DNA of 17,664 nucleotides, taken from positions 1-17,664 of the forward strand of contig JANWHI010000124.1 in the NCBI GenBank assembly GCA_025450495.1. The letters run 5' to 3'. Position 1 is the stretch's first letter, and every line of letters begins with the position of its first letter. Positions 2,702 to 15,926 of this stretch are shown here, piece by piece. This DNA comes from Candidatus Dormiibacter sp. Its GTDB lineage: Bacteria > Chloroflexota > Dormibacteria > UBA8260. The position numbers were made by a program, and so were the translations under genes. Below the pieces are notes generated by a model. The model was not told the origin of the DNA. It was given only the letters and a program-made list of their open reading frames with translations, and did no database searches.

Positions 2702-4288
2702 TCAGGCGCTGGCGGCCGTCTCCTCACGCGACCGCTCCGCGAGCAGGATGCCGTACTCGAACGCGTCGGCCAGGGCCGCCCACGACGCCTCGATGATGTT
2801 GGTGCTGCACCCCACCGTCGACCAGCGGCGGTGATGATCACCGGACTCGATGAGCACGCGCACGACGGCGGCGGTGCCGTCCTGTCCGTCGAGCACGCGG
2901 ACCTTGTAGTCGAACAGCTGGGTCGTCGCCGTCTCCGGGAAGGATGGTGAGAGGGCCTTGCGCATCGCCGCGTCGATGGCGTTGACCGGTCCGTTGCCTT
3001 CGGCAGCGGTGTGCACGACCGCACCGGCGACGCGCAGCTTGACGGTCGCCTCGCAGACCGGGGCACGACCCTCGCGCTGTTCGACGAGCGCGATGTAGTC
3101 GACCAGCTCGAACGGTGGCTTCTCGCCGCGGGCGCGCTGGACGAGCAGCTCGAAGGAACCGTCGGCGCCCTCGAACGCGTACCCCTGGTGCTCCAGCTCC
3201 TTGATCCGCGCGGTCACGCGCCGCACCAGCGCGCGGTCCTCCCCGAGGTCGATGCCGAGCTCGTCGGCGCGGTCGAGGATGTTGGCGCCGCCAGACTGCG
3301 AGCTGACCACGCTGCGGGTGTGGTTGCCGACCGCGCTGGGATCGATGTGCTGGTACGCGTACGACGCCTTGCGCATGGCGTCGACGTGCTGGCCGCCCTT
3401 GTGCGTGAACGCCGCGGCGCCGATGTAGGGCGCGTTGATCGGCGGGTTGAGGTTGGCGATCTCGGCGACGTCGCGGGCCACAGAGAACAGGTGGCGGAGC
3501 TGTTCGCCGTCCACCACCGCATATCCCATCTTCAGCTGCAGCGCGGGGATCACCGTGCAGAGGTTGGCGTTGCCGGTGCGCTCGCCGTACCCGTTGATGC
3601 AGCCCTGTACCTGCACGGCGCCGGCCCGCACCGCGGCCAGCGTGTTGGCCACTGCGCACCCGGTATCGTCGTGGCAGTGAATGCCAAGCACCTCGCCGAA
3701 CTCTGCGCTGGCCCGGCCCGTGACCGAGGCAACGCCGTCAGGCAGGGTGCCGCCGTTGGTGTCGCAGAGCGCGACGCGGTCCGCACCACCCGCGAGCGCT
3801 GCCTCCAGGCAGCGGATCGCGTAGTCAGGATCGGAACGGTGACCGTCGAAGAAATGCTCCGCGTCGAAATACACCTCGCGGCCGGCGGCCACCAACCAGG
3901 CCACGGACTCCTCGATCATCCGGAGGTTCTCATCCAGCGAGGTGCGCAGCACGTCATGCACCTGCTGATCCCAGCTCTTGCCGACCAGTGTGACGATGGG
4001 CGCCGCCGAATCGAGCAGGGCGCGCAGCTGGAGGTCGTCCTGGGGCCGCACGCCGGGCCGGCGCGTGGCCCCGAACGCGGCCAGTCGGGCGTGCTCGAAC
4101 CGGATGCCTCGCGCATTGGCGAAGAACTCGGTGTCGGTCTGGTTGGCGCCCGGCCAGCCGCCCTCGATGACGCTGACCCCGATGCGGTCGAGGTGCTCGG
4201 CGATGCGCAGCTTGTCGGACACCGAGAAGTTGATCCCCACCCCCTGGGCCCCGTCACGCAGGGTGGTGTCGTAGATCTCCAGCGTCAC
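2702..4288 (-). CDS. cimA: (R)-citramalate synthase CimA
   Basis: 528 aa. It condenses pyruvate and acetyl-CoA to citramalate, the entry to the threonine-independent route to isoleucine. The HMGL-like barrel shows YDTTLRDGAQ (metal ligand Asp7), the CimA/LeuA-like VIEGGWPGANQTD instead of LeuA's EAGFP, and HCHDDTG (His204, His206) with NGYGERTGNAN (Asn240) completing the metal site. The C-terminal regulatory domain carries GNGPVNAIDAAMRKAL. Length and motifs fit the long CimA type rather than homocitrate synthase. The start is GTG, overlapping the leuB stop as GTGA, so translation is coupled. It is the last gene of the BCAA operon and lies beside leuBCD, whose enzymes can process citramalate to 2-oxobutyrate. 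Confidence 0.93.
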   Translation of the reverse strand: MTLEIYDTTLRDGAQGVGINFSVSDKLRIAEHLDRIGVSVIEGGWPGANQTDTEFFANARGIRFEHARLAAFGATRRPGVRPQDDLQLRALLDSAAPIVTLVGKSWDQQVHDVLRTSLDENLRMIEESVAWLVAAGREVYFDAEHFFDGHRSDPDYAIRCLEAALAGGADRVALCDTNGGTLPDGVASVTGRASAEFGEVLGIHCHDDTGCAVANTLAAVRAGAVQVQGCINGYGERTGNANLCTVIPALQLKMGYAVVDGEQLRHLFSVARDVAEIANLNPPINAPYIGAAAFTHKGGQHVDAMRKASYAYQHIDPSAVGNHTRSVVSSQSGGANILDRADELGIDLGEDRALVRRVTARIKELEHQGYAFEGADGSFELLVQRARGEKPPFELVDYIALVEQREGRAPVCEATVKLRVAGAVVHTAAEGNGPVNAIDAAMRKALSPSFPETATTQLFDYKVRVLDGQDGTAAVVRVLIESGDHHRRWSTVGCSTNIIEASWAALADAFEYGILLAERSREETAASA

Positions 4289-5367
4289 TGGACAACACCT
4301 GCGGCGGTGGGGAGGTACGCCGGCAGGGCGGCAACGACCGCGGCGCCCGCGGCCGACGTCGACATGCTGCCGCCCAGGTCAGCGGTGAGCACGTTGTCGT
4401 CGATGCAGGAGTCGACCGCGGCCTCGATGGCCGCGGCCAGGTCGCCGCGCTCCAGCGAATGGCGCAGCAACAGCGCAACGCTGAGGATGGCTCCGTACGG
4501 GTTGGCCACGTCCATGCCGGCGATCTCGGGCGCGCTGCCGTGCACAGGCTCGAACAGCCCGGGACCCGAGTCCCCGAGGCTCGCGGACGGGAGCAGGCCG
4601 AGCGACCCAGCCAGCACCGCCGCCTCGTCGCTGAGGATGTCACCGAAAAGGTTCTCGGCGACGACCACGTCGATCTCCCGCGGCCGCTGCACCAGCCGCA
4701 TCGCGAACGAGTCGACCAGCGCGTGCTCGAGCGTCACCGTCGGGTACTCCTGCGTCAGCGCGCTCACCGCGTCTCGCCAGAGCTCGCCGGTGGCCAGGAC
4801 GTTGGCCTTGTCGACGGACGTGAGCTTGCCGCGACGCTGCGCCGCCAGGGCGAAGGCGACACGCGCGACACGCTCGACCTCGTCGCGTGTGTAGACGATG
4901 CTGTCGACCGCGGAGTCGGCCTCGCGGCGCTTCGGCTTGCCGAAGTACGCGCCACCGGTGAGCTCGCGGACCACGACTAAGTCGACGCCGCGAACCACGT
5001 CGGCGCGCAGCGGGGTGCGGTCGGCCAGTCGTGGGTGGACACGCACCGGGCGCAGGTTGGCGAAGACGCGCAGGCCGGCCCGGAGCGCCAACAGTCCGGA
5101 CTCGCAGCGCTGCGCGCCGCTGAGATGGTCCCACCGCGGGCCGCCGACGGCGCCGAGCAGGACCGCGTCGGCCGCCTGGCAGGCCCGCAGCGTCTCCGCC
5201 GGCAGGGGGGTGCCGGTCTCGTCGATGGCGCGCCCACCGATGAGATGCTCGGCAACCGTCAGCTCGAGGTCCGCCGCCTCGGCCACGGCGCGGAGCACGG
5301 CGATCGCCTGCGCGGTGACCTCGGCGCCGACGCCGTCGCCGGGCAGGGCGACCACGTGCACGCTCAT
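4285..5367 (-). CDS. leuB: 3-isopropylmalate dehydrogenase
   Basis: 360 aa, the usual length. It oxidises and decarboxylates 3-isopropylmalate with NAD+ in leucine synthesis and probably also acts on 3-methylmalate from the citramalate route. Seen: the N-terminal LPGDGVGAEV, the R-rich substrate segment (Arg100-LRPVR), ELTGGAYFGKPKR with catalytic Tyr141, SVDKANVL with Lys187, and Asp219, Asp243 and Asp247 around VDSFAMRL / ENLFGDILSDEAA. The cofactor loop is LFEPVHGSAPEIAG (272-284). The reading frame stays open far upstream, but the ATG at 5367 is the family start and overlaps the leuD stop as ATGA. The stop overlaps cimA's GTG. Confidence 0.95.
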   Translation of the reverse strand: MSVHVVALPGDGVGAEVTAQAIAVLRAVAEAADLELTVAEHLIGGRAIDETGTPLPAETLRACQAADAVLLGAVGGPRWDHLSGAQRCESGLLALRAGLRVFANLRPVRVHPRLADRTPLRADVVRGVDLVVVRELTGGAYFGKPKRREADSAVDSIVYTRDEVERVARVAFALAAQRRGKLTSVDKANVLATGELWRDAVSALTQEYPTVTLEHALVDSFAMRLVQRPREIDVVVAENLFGDILSDEAAVLAGSLGLLPSASLGDSGPGLFEPVHGSAPEIAGMDVANPYGAILSVALLLRHSLERGDLAAAIEAAVDSCIDDNVLTADLGGSMSTSAAGAAVVAALPAYLPTAAGVVQ

Positions 5368-5987
5368 GCGCGTTGCTCCACGCGGGAGACGTCGGGCATC
5401 CACGACGGCCGCGTCGCCTCGTACACCGAGATCTCGTCGAGGCTGTGCAGCGTCAGGGTGATGTCGTCGAGACCATCGAGCAGCAGGCGCCGCTGCGTCG
5501 CCTCGAGGCGAAACCCAAAGCGCAGGTCGCCGGCGCTGACCGTGCCGTCCTCGAGGTCGACGACGCACTCGACACCCGGGTCCTCTGCGGCGAGGTCGAG
5601 CAGCGCGCGCACCTCGTGCTCGGCCAGCGTGACGGGTAGCAGCCCGCAGCTGAGCGCGTTGCCATGAAAGATGTCGGCGAACGACGGCGCGATCACGGCG
5701 CGGAAGCCGTGGTCCTGCAGTGCCCACACCGCGTGCTCGCGCGACGATCCGCAGCCGAAGTTCCGGCCCGCGAGCAGGACCGTCCCGGTGCGGTACACGG
5801 GATCGTTGAGCACGAAGGCCGGACGCTCGGCGCCGCTGCCATCGTAGCGCCACTCGTGGAACAGGAACGCGCCGTAGCCGGTGCGCTCGATGCGCTTGAG
5901 GAACTGCTTGGGGATGATCTGGTCGGTGTCGACGTCGGAGCGGTCCAGCGGCACCAGCGTGCCGTGCTCGCAGCGGAACGGCTTCAT
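5364..5987 (-). CDS. leuD: 3-isopropylmalate dehydratase small subunit
   Basis: 207 aa. This is the swivelling small subunit of isopropylmalate isomerase and forms the active enzyme with LeuC. The family signature is [16 protein letters not shown] (residues 18-33), followed by [20 protein letters not shown] (71-90) and [21 protein letters not shown]. Bacterial LeuD is normally about 200 aa, so it is complete. The frame is open further upstream, but those residues read as a shadow of leuC; the ATG at 5987 gives the expected N-terminus and overlaps the leuC stop as ATGA. With LeuC it probably also isomerises citramalate for the isoleucine branch encoded by cimA. Confidence 0.95.
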
Positions 5988-7407
5988 GACGCCACCTCGG
6001 CAACATGCCCGACGAAGCGGCGCACGTCGGTGATGCGCCCCTCGATGGCGGCGGCCGCGGCCATCGGCGGCGACACCAGGTGGGTGCGCCCGCCGCGCCC
6101 CTGGCGGCCCTCGAAGTTGCGGTTGCTGGTGCTGGCGCACCTCTCCCCCGGCTTGAGGATGTCGGGGTTCATGCCCAGGCACATCGAACAGCCGGCATCG
6201 CGCCACTCAGCGCCGGCGCAGCGGAAGATGCGGTCGAGCCCTTCGCGCTCGGCCTGTCGCTTGACCTGCTGCGAGCCGGGAACGACGAGCACGCGCACCC
6301 CGGCCGCGACACGACGGCCCTCCATCACGCCGGCAGCACTGCGCAGGTCCTCGATCCGCGCGTTGGTGCACGAGCCGATGAACACGGTGTCGATGGCCAC
6401 CTCCTCCATCGGCGTGCCTGCTCGCAGTCCCATGTACTCCAGCGCGCGCGCTGCGGATTCGCGCTCGGCCGGGTCGGCGAAGCTATCGGGGTGCGGGATG
6501 CTGTCGGTTACCGCCACCGACTGCGCCGGGGTCGTGCCCCAGGTCACCGACGGGGCCAGGTCAGCGGCCGCGATGCTGACCTCACGCGCGTAGGCTGCGC
6601 CGTGGTCGGTGGCCAGCGTGCTCCACGCCGCCCCCGCGTCGTCCCACGCCTGGCCCTGCGGCGCGAACGGCCGCCCGCTGAGGTACGCGATGGTGGTGTC
6701 GTCAGGCGCGATCATCCCGGCGCGGCCGCCGGCCTCGATGGTGAGGTTGCACAGCGTCATCCGCTGCTCCATCGACATGCGCCGCACCACCGAGCCGGTG
6801 TACTCGACGACATGCCCGCGGGCGCCCGCCGTGCCGATGCGGCGGACCACGCCGAGCGCGACATCCTTGGCGGTCACCCAGAGTGGCAGCTCGCCGTCGA
6901 TGCGCACCTCCATTGACATCGGCCGCGCGGCGCGCAGCGCCTGCGTGGCCAGCACGTGCTCGACGTCGGTGGTGCCGATGCCGAAGGCCAGCGCTCCGAA
7001 AGCCCCGTGCGTCGCCGTGTGGCTGTCACCGCACACGATGGTGGTGCCAGGCAGGGTGAGCCCGAGCTCAGGCCCGATGACGTGCACGATGCCCTGCCAG
7101 CGGTGGCCGACCCCGTAGCACGCGATGCCGAACTCCGCGCAGTTGCGCCGCAGCGCCTCCACCTGCGCGGCGCTGATCTGGTCTTTGATGGGCGCCAGCT
7201 GGTCGATGGTGGGCACGTTGTGGTCCATCGTCGCCACCGTCAGGTCGGGACGGCGCACCGTTCGGCCGCCCATCCGCAGCCCCTCGAACGCCTGCGGCGA
7301 GGTGACCTCGTGGACCAGGTGCAGGTCGATGTACAGCAGCGACGGTCCGTCGGCGGCCGCAACGACGGTGTGCGCGTCCCAGACCTTGTCGAACAGCGTC
7401 CGTGCCG

Positions 7408-7411
<4 letters not shown>
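5984..7411 (-). CDS. leuC: 3-isopropylmalate dehydratase large subunit
   Basis: 475 aa, typical for the bacterial LeuC/aconitase-like subunit. It binds the [4Fe-4S] cluster and isomerises 2- to 3-isopropylmalate together with LeuD. Motifs: [10 protein letters not shown] at the N-terminus, [49 protein letters not shown], the first cluster Cys in [13 protein letters not shown], and two more in [10 protein letters not shown] (residues 408 and 411), ending with [12 protein letters not shown]. The ATG overlaps the leuA stop as ATGA, and its own stop overlaps leuD. The tight coupling suits equal production of the two subunits. Confidence 0.96.
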
Positions 7412-9035
<1,624 letters not shown>

Positions 9036-9039
<4 letters not shown>

Positions 9040-10088
9040 ACCGCCGTCTCCGCGGTCCCGTTGGACCCAGCCTGCTCCATGCCCGGCGCCGTCTTGGCGT
9101 CGAGCCAGGTCATCTGCGCACGCAGCGCCGCGCCCACCGCCTCCACGGGGTGGCGATGGTCCTCGTCGCGGTACTCGAGGAAGTCGGGGCGTCCGTTCTC
9201 GTTCTCGGCGATCCATCGCTTGGCGAAGGTGCCGTCCTGGATGTCGGTGAGGATGCCGCGCATCGTGGCCCTGGTGCGTGCGTCGACGACCTTGGGACCG
9301 CTGACGTAGTCGCCGAACTCGGCGGTGTCGCTCACCGAGTAGCGCATGTACGAGAGGCCGCCCTGGTACATCAGGTCGACGATCAGCTTGAGCTCGTGCA
9401 TCACCTCGAAATAGGCGAGCTCGGGCTGGTACCCGGCATCCACGAGCGTCTCGTATCCCGCCTTGACCAGGCTGGAGATGCCCCCGCACAGCACCGCCTG
9501 CTCACCGAACAGGTCGGTCTCGGTCTCCTCGGCGAAGGTGGTGCGCAGGCATCCGGCACGCGTGCCGCCGATGCCGCTTGCGTAGGCGAGCGTGCGCTGC
9601 CACGCATGCCCGGTGGCGTCCTGCTCGACGGCGATCAGGCACGGCACCCCCTGGCCGTCGCTGAAGGTGCGCCGCACCAGGTGGCCCGGCCCCTTCGGCG
9701 CCACCATGGCGACGTCGACCCCCTCTGGTGGTGCGATCTGCCCGAACCTGATGGTGAAGCCGTGGGCGAAGAGCAGCAGGTCGCCCGCTTCGAGGTTGTC
9801 ACGGATCTCGGCCTCGTAGAGCGCCTTCTGCGCGGTGTCCGGCACCAGCACCATGACCACGTTGGCCTCGGCCACCGCCTCCGACGGGGTGACCACGCGC
9901 AGGCCATCCGCCGCCGCGGTAGCGCGGCTGCGCGAGGCCGGCGGCAGACCGACGCGAACGTCGTACCCGGCATCGCGGAGATTCTGCGCGTGCGCGTGGC
10001 CCTGCGACCCGTAGCCGAGCACAGCGATGCGCACGCCATCGAGCGCCCCGTGATCGACATCTGCTTCGTAGTACATGCGTGCGGTCAT
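9036..10088 (-). CDS. ilvC: Ketol-acid reductoisomerase, class I
   Basis: 350 aa, class I size. It isomerises and reduces acetolactate or acetohydroxybutyrate. The Rossmann motif is [17 protein letters not shown] (25-41). MVAPKGPGH and the C-terminal knotted domain follow, with [31 protein letters not shown] and SDTAEFGDY. The cofactor loop reads VGLPPASRS; the Arg usually found at position 49 is Pro. The ATG at 10088 has AGGA about ten bases upstream; a farther ATG at 10115 would overlap ilvN but lacks a better signal. It lies 19 bases after ilvN, the only coding junction in the operon without a 4-base overlap. The C-terminal tail after residue 330 is low-complexity. Confidence 0.95.
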
Positions 10089-10107
10089 CTCTGTGTCCTC
10101 ATGAGCG

Positions 10108-10691
10108 CTAGACATTGCCCGTCGTGTCGACAGGTTCGGCATCGTCGCCGGCGATGGCGTGCAGATCGTTGTCGGTTCGGGGTACCTCGAAGTCGACGAG
10201 ACGAAGCCGGGCGTCGTCGCCGCGCACCAGCGCGACGGCGCCGCTCCGGGCCACCTCCTTGATGCCGAACGGGCGCATCAGGTCGATGAAGTTGTCGACC
10301 TTCTCGGTGGATCCGGTGACCTCGACGATCACCGACTCCTGCGCGATGTCGACGACACGGCCGCGGAAGATGTCGACGATGTCGAGCACATCGCGGCGCC
10401 TGGTGGTGGGCGCGTGCATGCGGATGAGCAGCAGCTCGTGGGCCACGACCCGCTGCCCGGTGACGTCGTCGATGCTGATCACGTCGATGAGCTTGGCCAG
10501 CTGCTTGGTGGCCTGTTCGGCCTGCTGGCGGCCCACATGGACGGTGATGGTCATGCGCGACACCGTCGGGTCATCGGTGGGCCCGACCGACAGCGAATCG
10601 ATGTTGAAGCCGCGCCGTCTCACCATCGAGGCGACGCGGTTGAGCACGCCCGGCTTGTTCTCGACGAGCACGGAGAGGAGACGGCTCTGGC

Positions 10692-10695
<4 letters not shown>
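10108..10695 (-). CDS. ilvN: Acetolactate synthase small (regulatory) subunit
   Basis: 195 aa. The N-terminal ACT domain starts [33 protein letters not shown]. Asn13, Gly16 and Asn31 match the valine-contact positions known from E. coli IlvH (Asn11, Gly14, Asn29), so valine feedback is probably intact. [14 protein letters not shown] and a second ACT-like domain with HELLLIRM and GRVVDI follow, then a C-terminal tail of about 25 residues (VPRTDND to TTGNV) that is longer than in many homologues. The subunit raises activity of IlvB and makes it valine-sensitive. The ATG overlaps the ilvB stop as ATGA, which suits stoichiometric assembly. Confidence 0.95.
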
Positions 10696-12418
<1,723 letters not shown>

Positions 12419-12422
<4 letters not shown>

Positions 12423-12607
12423 TTGTAGGTGCGGTGGATGGCGTCGCGGAAGAAGTCGAATCCCTCGGCGCGATACTGCGCGTCAGGGGCTCCGCCCGGC
12501 CTGGTGCGGAACTGGGACTGTTCGCGTTGGTGTCGCTCCATCGTCGAGGGCCGCTGTGGGTCGCGGCTGTCGGGCCGCGCCGGTGTCTGTCGGTGCCGGT
12601 CGTCCAT
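12419..12607 (-). CDS. 62-aa basic protein of unknown function, first gene after the BCAA attenuator
   Basis: Not recognised. The ATG at 12607 has a perfect GGAGG seven bases upstream (12615-12619), and the stop overlaps ilvB's GTG as GTGA. Both signs say it is translated and coupled to ilvB. The N-terminal two thirds is hydrophilic and rich in Arg, Gln, Pro and Asp (DDRHRQTPARPD, MERHQREQSQFRTRP), likely disordered. The last 18 residues (YRAEGFDFFRDAIHRTYK) look like an amphipathic aromatic helix. There is no signal peptide or membrane segment. It might bind acetolactate synthase, or serve mainly as a translational on-ramp for ilvB. The frame is open farther upstream, but that part runs through the terminator hairpin and is unlikely to be coding. 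Confidence 0.65.
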
Positions 12608-12635
12608 TGCCCTGCCTCCGTGGGGTGTCGTGGGT

Positions 12636-12674
12636 AAAAAAAGAAGGGCCCCCTCCTGAGAGGGGACCCTTCTT
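12636..12674 (-). terminator. Intrinsic terminator (attenuator) of the ilv-leu-cimA operon
   Basis: On the minus strand the arms 12660-12674 and 12641-12655 pair over 15 positions with one mismatch (12649/12666). The loop is a 4-base TCAG, and a run of T (12642 down to 12636) follows at once. This is a textbook intrinsic terminator placed between the leader peptide and the first structural gene, with no other gene to end there, so it works as an attenuator. The 5' arm can instead pair with 12732-12743 (see the leader RNA entry). Confidence 0.9.
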
Positions 12675-12698
12675 GGATCTGGATCTGGTCTGTGTGCC

Positions 12699-12794
12699 CT
12701 ATGTGCCCACGCGCCGCGCCCGGAACCTCGAGGCCCCACTCCCAATAAGGAGAAGGCCGACGAGTACGAGGACGAGGACGAGCCGCTTGGTCAT
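12699..12794 (-). CDS. Leu/Val/Ile-rich attenuator leader peptide
   Basis: 31 codons from ATG (12792-12794) to TAG (12699-12701). The start reads MTKR and then LVLVLVLVGLLLI: residues 5-17 hold seven Leu, four Val and one Ile with a single Gly, so 12 of 13 codons are BCAA codons. A basic tail (ASRFRARRVGT) ends before the terminator. No ribosome-binding site exists, because the ATG lies only nine bases after the -10 box; the mRNA is probably leaderless or nearly so. It senses charged branched-chain tRNAs through ribosome stalling, and the product itself needs no function. All three amino acids made by the downstream operon are represented. Confidence 0.88.
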   Translation of the reverse strand: MTKRLVLVLVLVGLLLIGSGASRFRARRVGT

Positions 12795-12803
12795 GTGGCC
12801 AGT

Positions 12804-12832
12804 AGCCTAGGGGACGGCGGGTGACACGTCAA
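12804..12832 (-). promoter_or_regulatory. Promoter of the ilv-leu-cimA operon
   Basis: TTGACG (12827-12832) and TAGGCT (12804-12809) on the minus strand are separated by exactly 17 bases, a strong housekeeping-sigma match. The predicted transcription start lies within a few bases of the leader peptide ATG at 12794. It sits in the 65-base interval after the ilvD stop, where no terminator is visible, so ilvD transcripts could also run into this leader. Confidence 0.8.
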
Positions 12833-12897
12833 GTACGAACCTGTGACGGTGTGGGAGTCCAGGCGAAGGTGACCGCGGCGATCAGCAGTTCTTGCCA

Positions 12898-14625
12898 CTA
12901 TCGGCCAGAACGCGAGGGCGCCGGCTCGGCGTCGGGGACGGGCGACGTGATTGCTCCGCGTGAGGCGGATCCCACCGTAGCGGCGTACTTGGCGAGGGCG
13001 CCGTACGGGTACCGCGGCGGCGGTGCCGTCCAGCCGCGCAGCCGCTCGGCCAGCTCCGCCTCGGTCACCTCGATGTCGATCCGGCGGGCCTCCACGTCGA
13101 CGGTGACCATGTCGCCATCCTGAAGCGCCGCGATTGGGCCCCCCAGGGCGGCCTCGGGAGTGACGTGGGCCACCATGAACCCGTGGGTGGCGCCGGAGAA
13201 GCGGCCGTCGGTGATCAGCGCGACCGAGTCGCCGAGCCCGGCGCCGACCAGCGCGCCCGTCACCGAGAGCATCTCGCGCATGCCCGGGCCCCCGACCGGG
13301 CCCTCGTAGCGGATCACCACCACATCGCCGTCGTGGATGCCACCTGACTGCACCGCCGCAAAGCACTCCTCCTCGCCATCGAAGACCCTGGCCGGCCCGC
13401 GGTGGTGGGTGCGCTCGTGGCCCGCCAGCTTGACGACGCACCCATCCGGAGCCAGCGGGCCGTGGAGGATGGCGATGCCGCCGCGGGGCTTGAGCGGCGC
13501 ATCGGCGGGCCTGATCACGTCCTGGCCGGCCGTCTCCTGCGCGGCGGCGGCGACCGCGCCGATGGAGCGGCCGTCGACGGTGGCGCAGTCGTCGTGGAGC
13601 AGCTTCAGCTGCTGCAGGCGTCGGGCGAGCACGGCCAGCCCGCCGGCGGCGTGGACGTCGGCGGCCACGAACCTACCACCGGGTTTGAGGTCGGCGAGGA
13701 TCGGGGTGCGCGCAGCGACCCGATCGAAGTCGGCGAGGTCGAGGCGGACACCGGCCTCGGCTGCGATCGCCAGCAGGTGCAAAACCGCGTTGGTCGACCC
13801 GCCGCTTGCGGCGACGCAGGCGATGGCGTTCTCGAAGGCGTCGCGGGTGGCCAGCTGGCGCGGCCGCAACCCATCGCGCACCACCCGCACTGCCAGCGTC
13901 CCGGCTGCGACGGCGGCGGCGGGCTTGTCCTTGTGCGTGGCGGGGATGTCGTTGGCGCCCGCCGGGCTGAGGCCGAGGAACTCCATCGCCGTGCTCATGG
14001 TGTTGGCGGTGAACTGGCCGCCGCAGGCCCCGGCGCCGGGACAGGCCGCCTCCTCCACCGCGCGCAGCTCGGCGTCGTCGATGCGCCCCGCGGCGTGCGC
14101 GCCGACGGCCTCGAACACCTCCTGGAGGGTGATGTCGCGGCCGCGATGGTGTCCCGCAGCGATCGTGCCGCTATAGAGGATCACCCCGGGCAGGTCCAGC
14201 CGCAGCAGTGCCATGGCCGCGGCGGGGATCGTCTTGTCACAGCCCACGATCAGCACCAGGCCGTCAAACGAGTGACCGCGGGCCACCAGCTCGATCGAGT
14301 CGGCGATCACCTCGCGTGACACCAATGACGCGCGCATCCCCTCGGTGCCCATCGACACACCGTCGCTGACAGCGATGGTGTTGAACTCCATCGGGGTGGC
14401 GCCGGCCGCGCGGACGCCGGCCTTGACGTTCTCCGCCAGAGCGCGGTGATTGAAGTTGCACGGCATGGTTTCGATCCACGCGTGGCCGACGCCGATGATC
14501 GGCTGGGCGAGGTCGCCGGCGCTGAAACCGATGGCGCGGAGCATGGCGCGCGCGGGCGCGCGATCCGGACCCTCGGTCATCGCCGCGCTGTGCCGCTTGC
14601 CGTTCTGCGTGCCGCTGGCGCCCAT
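12898..14625 (-). CDS. ilvD: Dihydroxy-acid dehydratase
   Basis: 575 aa. It dehydrates the dihydroxy acids to the valine and isoleucine keto acids and carries an Fe-S cluster. Seen: [24 protein letters not shown] (Cys56), [21 protein letters not shown] (Cys129), [16 protein letters not shown] (Cys201), [12 protein letters not shown], and the C-terminal [16 protein letters not shown]. The Cys pattern fits the family cluster ligands. The frame opens at 14754, but that would cross the promoter and the divergent aro leader. The ATG at 14625 follows a TAGACT box by ten bases and suggests a leaderless mRNA; ATG 14580 is another possibility. It is transcribed toward the ilvB operon but sits outside its attenuator. 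Confidence 0.94.
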
Positions 14626-14635
14626 GTGCGGCCGA

Positions 14636-14663
14636 AGTCTAGCCACAACGTTCGGGTTGCCGA
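14636..14663 (-). promoter_or_regulatory. Putative ilvD promoter, overlapping the divergent aro promoter
   Basis: TAGACT (14636-14641) on the minus strand lies ten bases before the ilvD ATG at 14625. TCGGCA (14658-14663), 16 bases upstream, matches the -35 consensus at four of six positions. The -35 occupies nearly the same bases as the -35 of the plus-strand aro promoter. The -10 is convincing by its similarity to the neighbouring TAGGCT and TAGGGT boxes; the -35 is weak. Confidence 0.5.
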
Positions 14664-14685
14664 TTTCCCGCGCAGATGGTAGGGT
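14657..14685 (+). promoter_or_regulatory. Promoter of the aro leader and DAHP synthase gene
   Basis: TTGCCG (14657-14662), a 17-base spacer, then TAGGGT (14680-14685). The leader peptide ATG begins seven bases after the -10 box, where transcription would be expected to start, so the transcript is probably leaderless. Confidence 0.65.
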
Positions 14686-14691
14686 GCCGCC

Positions 14692-14760
14692 ATGCGATTC
14701 GCCGCGCGTTTCTATTTTGATCGGCCAGCCCGTCGGCTGCCGAGGGCTCCCCAAGCCTAA
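14692..14760 (+). CDS. Phe/Tyr leader peptide of the DAHP synthase-chorismate mutase gene
   Basis: 22 codons from ATG to TAA (14758-14760). The peptide begins [11 protein letters not shown]: Phe3, Phe7, Tyr8 and Phe9, a Phe-Tyr-Phe cluster at codons 7-9 (14710-14718), then an Arg/Pro/Ala-rich tail. It sits directly behind a promoter with no room for a ribosome-binding site and is followed by strong RNA structure before a gene for the first step of aromatic amino acid synthesis. Ribosome stalling at the Phe/Tyr codons when charged tRNA is scarce is the obvious model; a Phe/Tyr-coding leader (aroR) before aroF is known in Corynebacterium glutamicum. There are only four control codons, so the case is weaker than for the BCAA leader. 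Confidence 0.7.
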
Positions 14761-14794
14761 CGCGCAGTCGTCACCGAGGCTGGCTTCATCAATG

Positions 14795-14831
14795 ATGGGT
14801 CAGTCCCGGAGAGCCCCGCGGAGTGACCCAT
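14795..14831 (+). promoter_or_regulatory. Strong leader hairpin upstream of the DAHP synthase-chorismate mutase start
   Basis: ATGGGTCA (14795-14802) pairs perfectly with TGACCCAT (14824-14831). Inside, TCCCGG (14804-14809) pairs with CCGCGGA (14816-14822) with one bulged C, giving 14 pairs in all around a six-base loop. No T-tract follows, so it is either a U-less terminator or a translational block. A competing pairing joins leader bases 14740-14752 to 14808-14821 (about 11 pairs around GGGCTC/GAGCCC), and a 7-bp hairpin lies at 14729-14746. These fit alternating attenuator states but are hand-drawn. Confidence 0.6.
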
Positions 14832-14855
14832 TCACATCGCGGAGGACTCGACAAG

Positions 14856-15926
14856 GTGGTCATCGACTCACTGATTCCCAGCGCCACACGTGGTGCGCGC
14901 CTCGTCGCGATCGGCGGCGTCGTCATCGGCGGACCGGACGTGCCGGTGATCAGCGGCCCATGCGCTGTCGAGCCAGGCTACGTCGCCCACGCCCGCGCCG
15001 CCGCGCGCGCCGGCGCGGCCGCGCTGCGCGGCTGCGTGCACAAGCCGCGGACCCAGCCGGAGGCCTTCCAGGGAATGGGCGCGGCGGGTCTGGCGCTGCT
15101 CGACGAGGCGCGCGCGCTCACCGGTCTGCCGGTCATCGCCGAGCCGCTCGGCGTCGAGCACATCGCCCAGCTGCAACCCCACGTCGACGCGCTGATGATC
15201 GGCGCCCGCTCGATGCACAACACCCCGCTGCTCCGCGCGGCGGCGCGATCGGGGCTCCCCGTCGTCGTCAAGCGGGGGATGTCGGCGACGATCGAGGAGT
15301 GGCTCGCCGCCGCCCGTTACGTCCTACTCGAGGGCAACGACCAGGTGGTGCTGTGCGAGCGCGGCATCCGCACCTTCGAGACCGCGACCCGCAACACCCT
15401 CGACATCTCCTCGATCCCGGTGCTGCGTGACCGCACCGACCTGCCCGTGATCGTCGACCCCAGCCACGCCGCCGGCCAGGGGCCGTGGGTTCCCGCGCTC
15501 GCCGTCGCCGCCGTGGCGGCCGGCGCCGATGGGTTGCTCATCGAGTCCCATCCCGACCCGGAGCACGCGCTCTGCGACTCCGCGCAGGCGATCAGCTCCG
15601 ACACCCTGGCCGAGATCGTCCGCTCAACCCAGCTGCTCGCGACCTCGGCGCGACCATCACCGGCCACGACCGTCGACGAGTGCCGCACGGCGATCGACGG
15701 CGTCGACGCGGCGCTGGCCCAGCTGCTGGAACGCCGGGCCACGCTGGTCGCCCGGGTGGAGCGGATCAAGCTGGATGCCGGCGTGCCGATCCGCGACCGG
15801 CGCCGCGAGGCGGAGGTCACCGCGCGCGTCGCCCTGCTCGCCCCCCAGCTGGGCAAGGACGGCGCGGCCGCGGTCATGGCGGCGGTGATCGACGCCTGCG
15901 TCGCCACCGCGCTGGCGAGCGCGTGA
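14856..15926 (+). CDS. aroF: DAHP synthase (type I-beta) with C-terminal chorismate mutase domain
   Basis: 356 aa from GTG 14856, which has GGAGGA at 14841-14846. A GTG at 14823 adds 11 residues but lies inside the leader hairpin. The barrel (about residues 20-265) has SGPCAVE with metal-binding Cys36, [43 protein letters not shown] and [12 protein letters not shown], making DAHP from PEP and erythrose 4-phosphate. There is no N-terminal ferredoxin-like domain. After a linker, residues about 270-356 form an AroQ chorismate mutase ([21 protein letters not shown], then [10 protein letters not shown]). Fusion in this order suggests feedback by prephenate or by ligand binding to the mutase domain, as in known C-terminal fusions. 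The stop lies one base from the convergent hydrolase stop. Confidence 0.93.

Follow-up and report, generated by a model that had tools for sequence, protein, structure and literature searches.

A short reading frame made up largely of leucine, valine and isoleucine codons lies ahead of a set of branched-chain amino acid (BCAA) biosynthesis genes in the 17,664-nucleotide stretch of DNA analysed here (the window). The question raised by this locus is whether the frame regulates these genes and, if so, which of its codons are sensed. An initial annotation, made from the sequence of the window, described a complete leaderless BCAA attenuator and named Actinobacteria among the known precedents. Having compared the locus with its relatives, we consider it very probable that an ilvBNC-leuACDB-cimA operon is controlled here by ribosome-mediated transcription attenuation from a leaderless frame, in a soil bacterium of Candidatus Dormibacterota, a little-studied phylum known chiefly through metagenomes. 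An Actinobacterial setting is not supported: the closest ilvB in a scan of 74 loci is that of Candidatus Amunia macphersoniae (90%), followed by Candidatus Aeolococcus gillhamiae (88%), and the host is placed in Candidatus Dormibacterota, Aeolococcaceae (the lineage of Amunia).

Anatomy of the leader and the genes behind it

The elements of the leader are as follows.

12827..12832, minus strand: -35 element TTGACG (from the sequence; TTGAC in 16/16 clade-A rows)
12804..12809, minus strand: -10 element TAGGCT, 9 nt 5' of the leader ATG, with a 17-nt spacer from the -35 element
12699..12794, minus strand: leader ORF of 31 codons, MTKRLVLVLVLVGLLLIGSGASRFRARRVGT, stop codon TAG at 12701-12699; equivalents in 55 loci
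12749..12758, minus strand: segment 1, 5' arm of the predicted 1:2 (anti-antiterminator) hairpin (from folding and the clade-A alignment)
12732..12743, minus strand: segment 2, which encodes GSGA and has two possible partners, segment 1 and the terminator 5' arm
12660..12674, minus strand: segment 3, terminator 5' arm
12641..12655, minus strand: segment 4, terminator 3' arm
12636..12642, minus strand: terminator T-run of seven T, the first two inside the stem

Codons 5-17 of the leader ORF encode four Leu-Val repeats followed by Gly, three Leu and Ile, and 12 of these 13 codons specify a BCAA. This density is reached in one frame of the 17.7-kb window and in none of 100 dinucleotide shuffles. 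No Shine-Dalgarno motif was found before the ORF. The terminator (12674-12641) has 15 paired positions and a loop of 4. The coordinates given in the initial annotation for TTGACG, the 17-nt spacer, TAGGCT, the ATG nine bases on and the 12 BCAA codons proved exact to the base, and its 15-position terminator stem with a T7 tail was found as described. In the minimum-energy fold of 12794-12630, 12743-12732 pairs with 12758-12749 (z -3.18; equalled by 2/200 shuffles), and the terminator 5' arm likewise finds its best partner in 12743-12732. Taken alone, this 2:3 duplex of the window is unexceptional, since 11/200 shuffled leaders match its energy, and the case for an attenuator rests on the relatives and not on the window alone.

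On the minus strand 3' of the terminator, a 62-codon ORF is followed by ilvB, ilvN, ilvC, leuA, leuC, leuD, leuB and cimA, and most of these genes overlap or almost do.

12419..12607, minus strand: 62-codon ORF, preceded by GGAGG (12619-12615) and overlapping the start of ilvB
10692..12422, minus strand: ilvB, acetolactate synthase large subunit (by sequence comparison)
10108..10695, minus strand: ilvN, acetolactate synthase small subunit
9036..10142, minus strand: ilvC, ketol-acid reductoisomerase (limits of the ORF; the real start may be internal)
7408..8970, minus strand: leuA, 2-isopropylmalate synthase (start approximate, being the first matched residue)
5984..7411, minus strand: leuC (named from an aconitase-family match and its position between leuA and leuD)
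5364..5987, minus strand: leuD
4285..5358, minus strand: leuB (start approximate)
2702..4288, minus strand: cimA, citramalate synthase (TIGR00977 above cut-off)
12898..14754, minus strand: ilvD, 5' of the leader promoter

The eight genes which the initial annotation had placed behind the attenuator were thus identified as BCAA genes. ilvD lies upstream of the leader promoter and therefore outside attenuator control. Divergent from ilvD, at 14823-15926 on the plus strand, lies a gene for a DAHP synthase with a C-terminal chorismate mutase domain.

The 62-codon ORF with its Shine-Dalgarno sequence between the terminator and ilvB was absent from the initial annotation. No match to it was found in searches against plasmids or against Pfam, and tblastn with its protein gave matches in L001 and L011 only. 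ORFs of similar size are located between the terminator and ilvB in 13 clade-A rows, with C-termini that often read EFVRRSLxRYYQ or FRDAIHRTYK, and GGAGG precedes the post-terminator ORF in 13 of 14 clade-A rows inspected (the exception is L015). The small ORF at this position in clade C is unrelated to the clade-A one.

Conservation among relatives and the start of the leader

The 74 loci came from one scan. Ten of them, assigned to other phyla by their titles (L057-L059, L061-L065, L069 and L072; ilvB identity 39-45%), were set aside, and in nine the upstream DNA was missing or masked (L010, L017, L037, L039, L040, L052, L056, L071 and L074). The remaining 55 loci, with ilvB identities of 55-90%, are almost wholly metagenome-assembled, are titled Dormibacterota, Chloroflexi or just bacterium, and were treated as one phylum. 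A short BCAA-containing ORF precedes ilvB in all 55, and a terminator follows this ORF in 54 of them; in L015 the terminator is masked by Ns, and this locus was left out of the duplex test, the ribosome-position model and the alignments. Eight leaders (L014, L016, L054, L045 and L048-L051) scored below the automatic threshold and were found by eye, and the clade-C start codons were picked with the promoter in view. Together with the window, the relatives make up 56 rows, which were grouped by eye and not by a tree into clades A (16 rows), B (21), C (10) and D (9). Clade B comprises L018-L020, L022, L024, L025, L027-L032, L034-L036, L055, L060, L066, L068, L070 and L073.

The BCAA runs are shorter in clade C and shortest in L045, which has few BCAA codons. 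Clade-A peptides combine a hydrophobic stretch with an Arg-rich tail, as would be expected if the leader ORF encoded a real small membrane protein with a hydrophobic core and a basic tail, the hairpin being merely its terminator. However, the tail is missing from clades B, C and D, where the BCAA codons, a GGG codon and the complementarity to the terminator are kept. In addition, Shine-Dalgarno motifs are almost absent, and the terminator sits before ilvB and not behind an operon. We regard such a membrane protein as highly improbable and retain the attenuator as the preferred reading.

The start codons of the 56 leaders are ATG (40), GTG (8) and TTG (8). The chosen -10 element ends 9-11 nt 5' of the start in 52/56 leaders, a spacing that is partly made by the method because the -10 element was picked as the best within a range of 7-13 nt. 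The picker is also imperfect: in L020 only 3 nt separate TACTAT from the chosen ATG, so that the following ATG is the better candidate, and in L026 TAGTCT is a better -10 candidate than the one selected. A less method-bound measure is the occurrence of TANNNT 8-12 nt 5' of the start, found for 42/56 leaders compared to 136/19,520 start-like codons in the same sequences. A Shine-Dalgarno-like motif precedes the leader in 1/56 rows, or in 2/56 with another search range. Judged by promoter spacing and the near-lack of Shine-Dalgarno motifs, the leader is probably leaderless, in line with the near absence of a 5' untranslated region (UTR) proposed in the initial annotation.

Transcription might instead begin further upstream, with the leader translated from a longer 5' UTR. 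The window allows for this in that ilvD is codirectional and could read through (ilvD is likewise codirectional upstream in L001, L002 and L011); moreover, a generic sigma-70 scan of 10000-15000 found no promoter, and TAGGCT matches TATAAT at 3/6 positions. On the other hand, TTGAC and a well-placed -10-like element are present in all 16 clade-A and all 10 clade-C rows, TTGAC being found in no clade-B or clade-D row, and the rarity of Shine-Dalgarno-like motifs argues in the same direction. Where ilvD was found in clade A, it is divergent in 10 of 13 loci, with the edge of the tblastn match 28-120 nt from the leader start, and leuC is divergent upstream in 21/21 clade-B loci (96-269 nt by match edge). 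With a divergent gene so close upstream, the leader at these loci is transcribed from a short gap and a far-upstream start, which the initial annotation named as an observation that would speak against it, is excluded there, whereas the window with its codirectional ilvD is not covered by this argument. Overall, we consider a distant start very unlikely and a leaderless start the better explanation.

Clade B, which is without the TTGAC -35 element, carries a palindrome TTTGT-N7-9-(A/C)ACAA in 19/21 rows, and the same pattern occurs in no A, C or D row. It is located approximately 37-60 nt 5' of the leader start, between the divergent leuC and the ilvB leader, and looks like an activator or LysR-type site.

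Alternative pairings and the codons predicted to be sensed

When leader ORFs were paired with the 5' arm of their terminators, the segment directly following the BCAA codons formed part of the best duplex in 54/54 leaders (in L047 this duplex extends back to codon 14), although by energy no more than 31 of the 54 duplexes outdo 95% of shuffles. L018 was left out of this test, and its terminator was set by hand for the ribosome-position models. Loss of the LVLV frame or of the pairing in close relatives would, according to the initial annotation, have spoken against an attenuator; a BCAA frame is kept in 55/55 relatives and the pairing in 54/54 leaders.

Within clade A, the 2:3 pairing is formed in 97.0% of cells (15 distinct rows) or 97.5% (18 distinct rows), compared to at most 84.8 and 86.3%, respectively, for versions slid along the alignment. 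Its covariation score was reached by 3/500 shuffles (15 rows) and 1/500 shuffles (18 rows), with 3 and 2 pairs, respectively, changed on both sides; a slide of -1 column nevertheless has more doubly changed cells than the 2:3 structure (7 vs. 5; 8 vs. 3). The telling pair consists of columns 61 and 135, where the terminator arm has U for C in the window, L001, L002 and L011. The segment-2 base opposite this U is A in two of these rows (L001 and L002) and G in the window; L011 carries its A one position further 5', and its pairing register is displaced. The partner of column 135 within the terminator itself is G in all 15 rows. The 1:2 hairpin is paired in 97.2% of cells (slid versions at most 70.4%) and contains one covarying pair, with 61/500 shuffles scoring as high, and in the terminator 5/13 pairs are changed on both sides (18 distinct rows). 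The consensus fold of clade B contains a 2:3 helix, CGGGGGC:GCCCCCG, and an inner helix at the stop codon, both nearly invariant; clade B adds no covariation because RNAalifold gives 0/29 doubly changed pairs. The pairing evidence as a whole leans on G/C-rich arms that change slowly. Of the covariation proposed as a check in the initial annotation, some was seen for the 2:3 pairing, subject to the result of the -1 slide, and for the terminator, and it was nearly lacking for the 1:2 hairpin (1 pair).

Codon choice points to constraint on the same segment. The Gly codon picked in segment 2 is GGG in 54/56 rows compared to 21% in the eight BCAA genes of the window (for codon use, ilvD was counted and leuD was not), a preference that amounts to synonymous constraint as judged from sequence. 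The three-state RNA of the initial annotation, in which 12743-12732 has two alternative partners, is supported by folding and by the pairing of the relatives, with the 1:2 hairpin as a putative protective element. By sequence and comparison, the locus combines a control-codon leader ORF, present in 55 relatives and poorer in BCAA codons in clade C, an intrinsic terminator between this ORF and the first gene, and a putative antiterminator competing for the terminator 5' arm.

Based on this anatomy, conservation, pairing and codon bias, we infer start site, stalling, termination, antitermination and amino-acid response as follows. The transcript would begin at the leader start codon or no more than a few bases from it, and ribosomes would load onto its 5' end. 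When tRNA-Leu and tRNA-Val are charged, the ribosome would reach the stop codon, segment 2 would pair with segment 1 behind it, and the terminator would form and end transcription near 12636. At a hungry codon among codons 9-14 (Leu9, Val10, Leu11, Val12 or Leu14), the ribosome would cover segment 1, upon which segment 2 would capture the terminator 5' arm and polymerase would read into the eight genes. In a leader without a ribosome, the 1:2 hairpin would likewise permit termination.

The sensing range was predicted with a ribosome-position model, in which the 3' edge of the ribosome lies 16 nt from the first base of the P-site and the RNA is folded to the terminator loop; the model is an equilibrium one and ignores kinetics. 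For the window, folding with ribosome-masked bases, as suggested in the initial annotation, gave the antiterminator when the A-site codon was 9-14 (L V L V G L), half formed at codon 15 and absent from codon 16, and folding without a ribosome gave the 1:2 hairpin, the off state. Moving the ribosome edge from +10 to +18 shifted the on range by at most 2 codons. The off state with the ribosome at the stop codon follows from the ban on pairs across the ribosome in the model; when such pairs are allowed, the window stays off at the stop and several relatives (L001, L002, L003 and L006) turn on. Without a ribosome, 1:2 pairing wins in 14/15 clade-A rows (not in L006), 4/10 clade-C, 0/21 clade-B and 0/9 clade-D rows.

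The model bears on the earlier statement that the leader reads Leu, Val and Ile together. Sensing of Leu and Val is predicted, and sensing of Ile is not: Ile17 lies outside the on range of the window, at a position where a stalled ribosome would itself mask segment 2. With the ribosome edge at +10 or +11 this codon is half on; it is nearly off with the edge at +12 and off from +13. In all 15 clade-A rows modelled, the BCAA codon closest to segment 2 on its 5' side (Val in L006, Ile in the others) is off; 19/21 clade-B rows have one or more Ile codons in the on range. BCAA codons inside compared to outside the modelled on range number 104/149 vs. 73/289 in clade A, 201/367 vs. 20/193 in clade B and 53/131 vs. 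15/79 in clade D, and no enrichment was seen in clade C (61/169 vs. 32/91). The leaders also favour codons that are rare in the eight BCAA genes of the window: AUU (77% of leader Ile codons vs. 1%), GUA (43% vs. 1%) and CUU (25% vs. 2%). In clade A, AUU (12746-12744 in the window) falls in the 1:2 hairpin loop, beyond the codons predicted to be sensed. Since a single tRNA normally decodes both AUU and AUC, a reason in RNA structure is as likely for the AUU preference.

Read-through could also be set without codon sensing, by general translation of the leader or by arrest caused by the nascent hydrophobic peptide. The folding model is blind to the difference between codon hunger and peptide arrest at the same codons, clade C lacks the enrichment described above, and changes of ilvB leader codons in Streptomyces coelicolor were without effect according to the account given in PMC1262725. 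However, the residue order of the leader peptides is not kept between clades, and in a sister leader (see below), which precedes a homocitrate synthase gene, the Lys codons fall within the on range, although this range is broad there. We consider control without codon sensing unlikely and sensing of Leu and Val codons the preferred explanation.

Known attenuators, copies per genome and a lysine sister

Attenuators of the leaderless BCAA kind have been described for Corynebacterium and Streptomyces, and the window attenuator is therefore of an already-known switch type. The ilvBNC attenuator of Corynebacterium glutamicum (ilvL; ilvB-II motif) likewise has a BCAA-rich leader peptide before ilvBNC, a terminator and an antiterminator, and its leaderless start and anti-antiterminator hairpin correspond to the probable leaderless start and the putative 1:2 hairpin of the window, as described in passages of PMC11857589 and PMC10272879. 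The former places the start one nucleotide from the leader ATG and states that replacement of valine codons abolishes the response; the latter describes a uORF attenuator of ilvB across Corynebacterium. The window differs in phylum and sequence, in a leader of 31 codons compared to 15 in C. glutamicum, in having segment 2 within the ORF, some ten codons short of the stop, and in an operon that also carries leuACDB and cimA. Leaderless leader peptides (ilvL, leuL, trpL and others) are listed from RNAseq in Streptomyces lividans (passages of PMC8079986), where BCAA codons and a terminator before ilvBHC resemble the window and the leaderless start resembles that proposed for it; the S. lividans peptide has 13 codons and another sequence, and codon sensing was questioned in S. 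coelicolor (PMC1262725). The Actinobacterial ilvB leaders predicted by Seliverstov et al. (2005) share the short BCAA ORF and the terminator, but the ORF is said there to overlap the terminator hairpin, and the study treats Actinobacteria (PMC1262725). Attenuation of ilvB1 is also reported for Mycobacterium tuberculosis in a passage of PMC13236596. The attenuator RNA of Sinorhizobium meliloti trpL has its 5' end at the leader ATG, as predicted for the window, but senses tryptophan and belongs to the Alphaproteobacteria (passages of PMC7298713).

In the open-licence PMC literature, no published attenuator was found for Dormibacter and no transcription attenuation for Dormibacterota. Rfam 15 gave no match at the gathering score for the window or for the loci of 13 relatives. 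A weak match to a Bradyrhizobiaceae sRNA (24.1 bits vs. a cut-off of 39) and four weaker matches, mostly on the terminator, were regarded as chance.

A covariance model built from the window and 14 loci was used to scan 32 genomes of the family. A full-length copy (E 4e-24 or better) was found in 20/32 genomes, 14 of which hold training loci and match by construction; the six new ones are G012, G020, G022, G023, G031 and G032, the last of which holds the masked L015. One of the 32 genomes gave a weak match only and 11 gave none, some of these genomes being small. G012 has two strong copies, each near a contig end (L098 and L100; full-length matches of 87 and 75 bits), which are outside the 56 rows. 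No leader was seen at the weak matches in G006:C92 and G018 within the sequence inspected, and for those in L115-L117 the scan gave no leaderless short ORF. Outside the phylum, a BCAA-rich short ORF (ending MHIVVSLLVLLVVVVADDKLTG) precedes ilvB at L065:4818-5022 in Ca. Marispirochaeta associata; the region matches the clade-A model weakly (E 0.0016) and may be a BCAA attenuator of a spirochaete.

The full-length matches include a further class of lower score, made up of leaderless ORFs that carry tandem AAA AAA (Lys) codons and have a terminator of their own.

L107:599-740: Lys leader with a peptide like VQTSVRLAKKAVSLPRSGFLCARMR; also in L101, L102, L110-L114, L125 and L126

These leaders lie directly 5' of a homocitrate synthase gene (best NCBIfam TIGR02146, below cut-off for a 300-residue piece). 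They are present in 10/11 genomes with the closest homologue (77-100% identical; group A), the one before L127 being missing, and the same scan detected no Lys leader before nine homologues at 61-64% identity. The Lys codons fall in the on range in 10/10 leaders modelled, an on range that covers nearly all codons to about 11. Leader-peptide attenuation of lysine genes is known in Thermus. A leaderless pattern with Trp codons matched 10/13 genomes, with counts for a reversed-pattern control of the same order. Six loci from two sets of such matches were inspected: the nearest frames of the set in G006, G020 and G022 are without a run of Trp codons, and the set in G033, G035, G036 and G037 precedes a 102-residue ORF. 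No Trp attenuator is claimed.

Leaderless attenuation may be a phylum-wide form of amino-acid operon control in Dormibacterota in which the untranslated default has been rewired: the 1:2 hairpin would keep it off in clade A, and it would be on in clades B and D, which are without this hairpin in the model. This reading is tentative and falls a little short of what we would call probable; its scope so far is BCAA in every readable relative and lysine in one family. New are the phylum, the four-clade comparison, the lysine sister and the codon-level prediction of sensing, which is testable and includes a conserved Ile codon predicted not to be sensed in the clade of the window. The locus would extend leaderless BCAA attenuation to Dormibacterota and provides 55 natural variants in four clades, in which start-codon spacing, the GGG codon and terminator-arm pairing are fixed, and the tail, the protective hairpin and the density of control codons vary.
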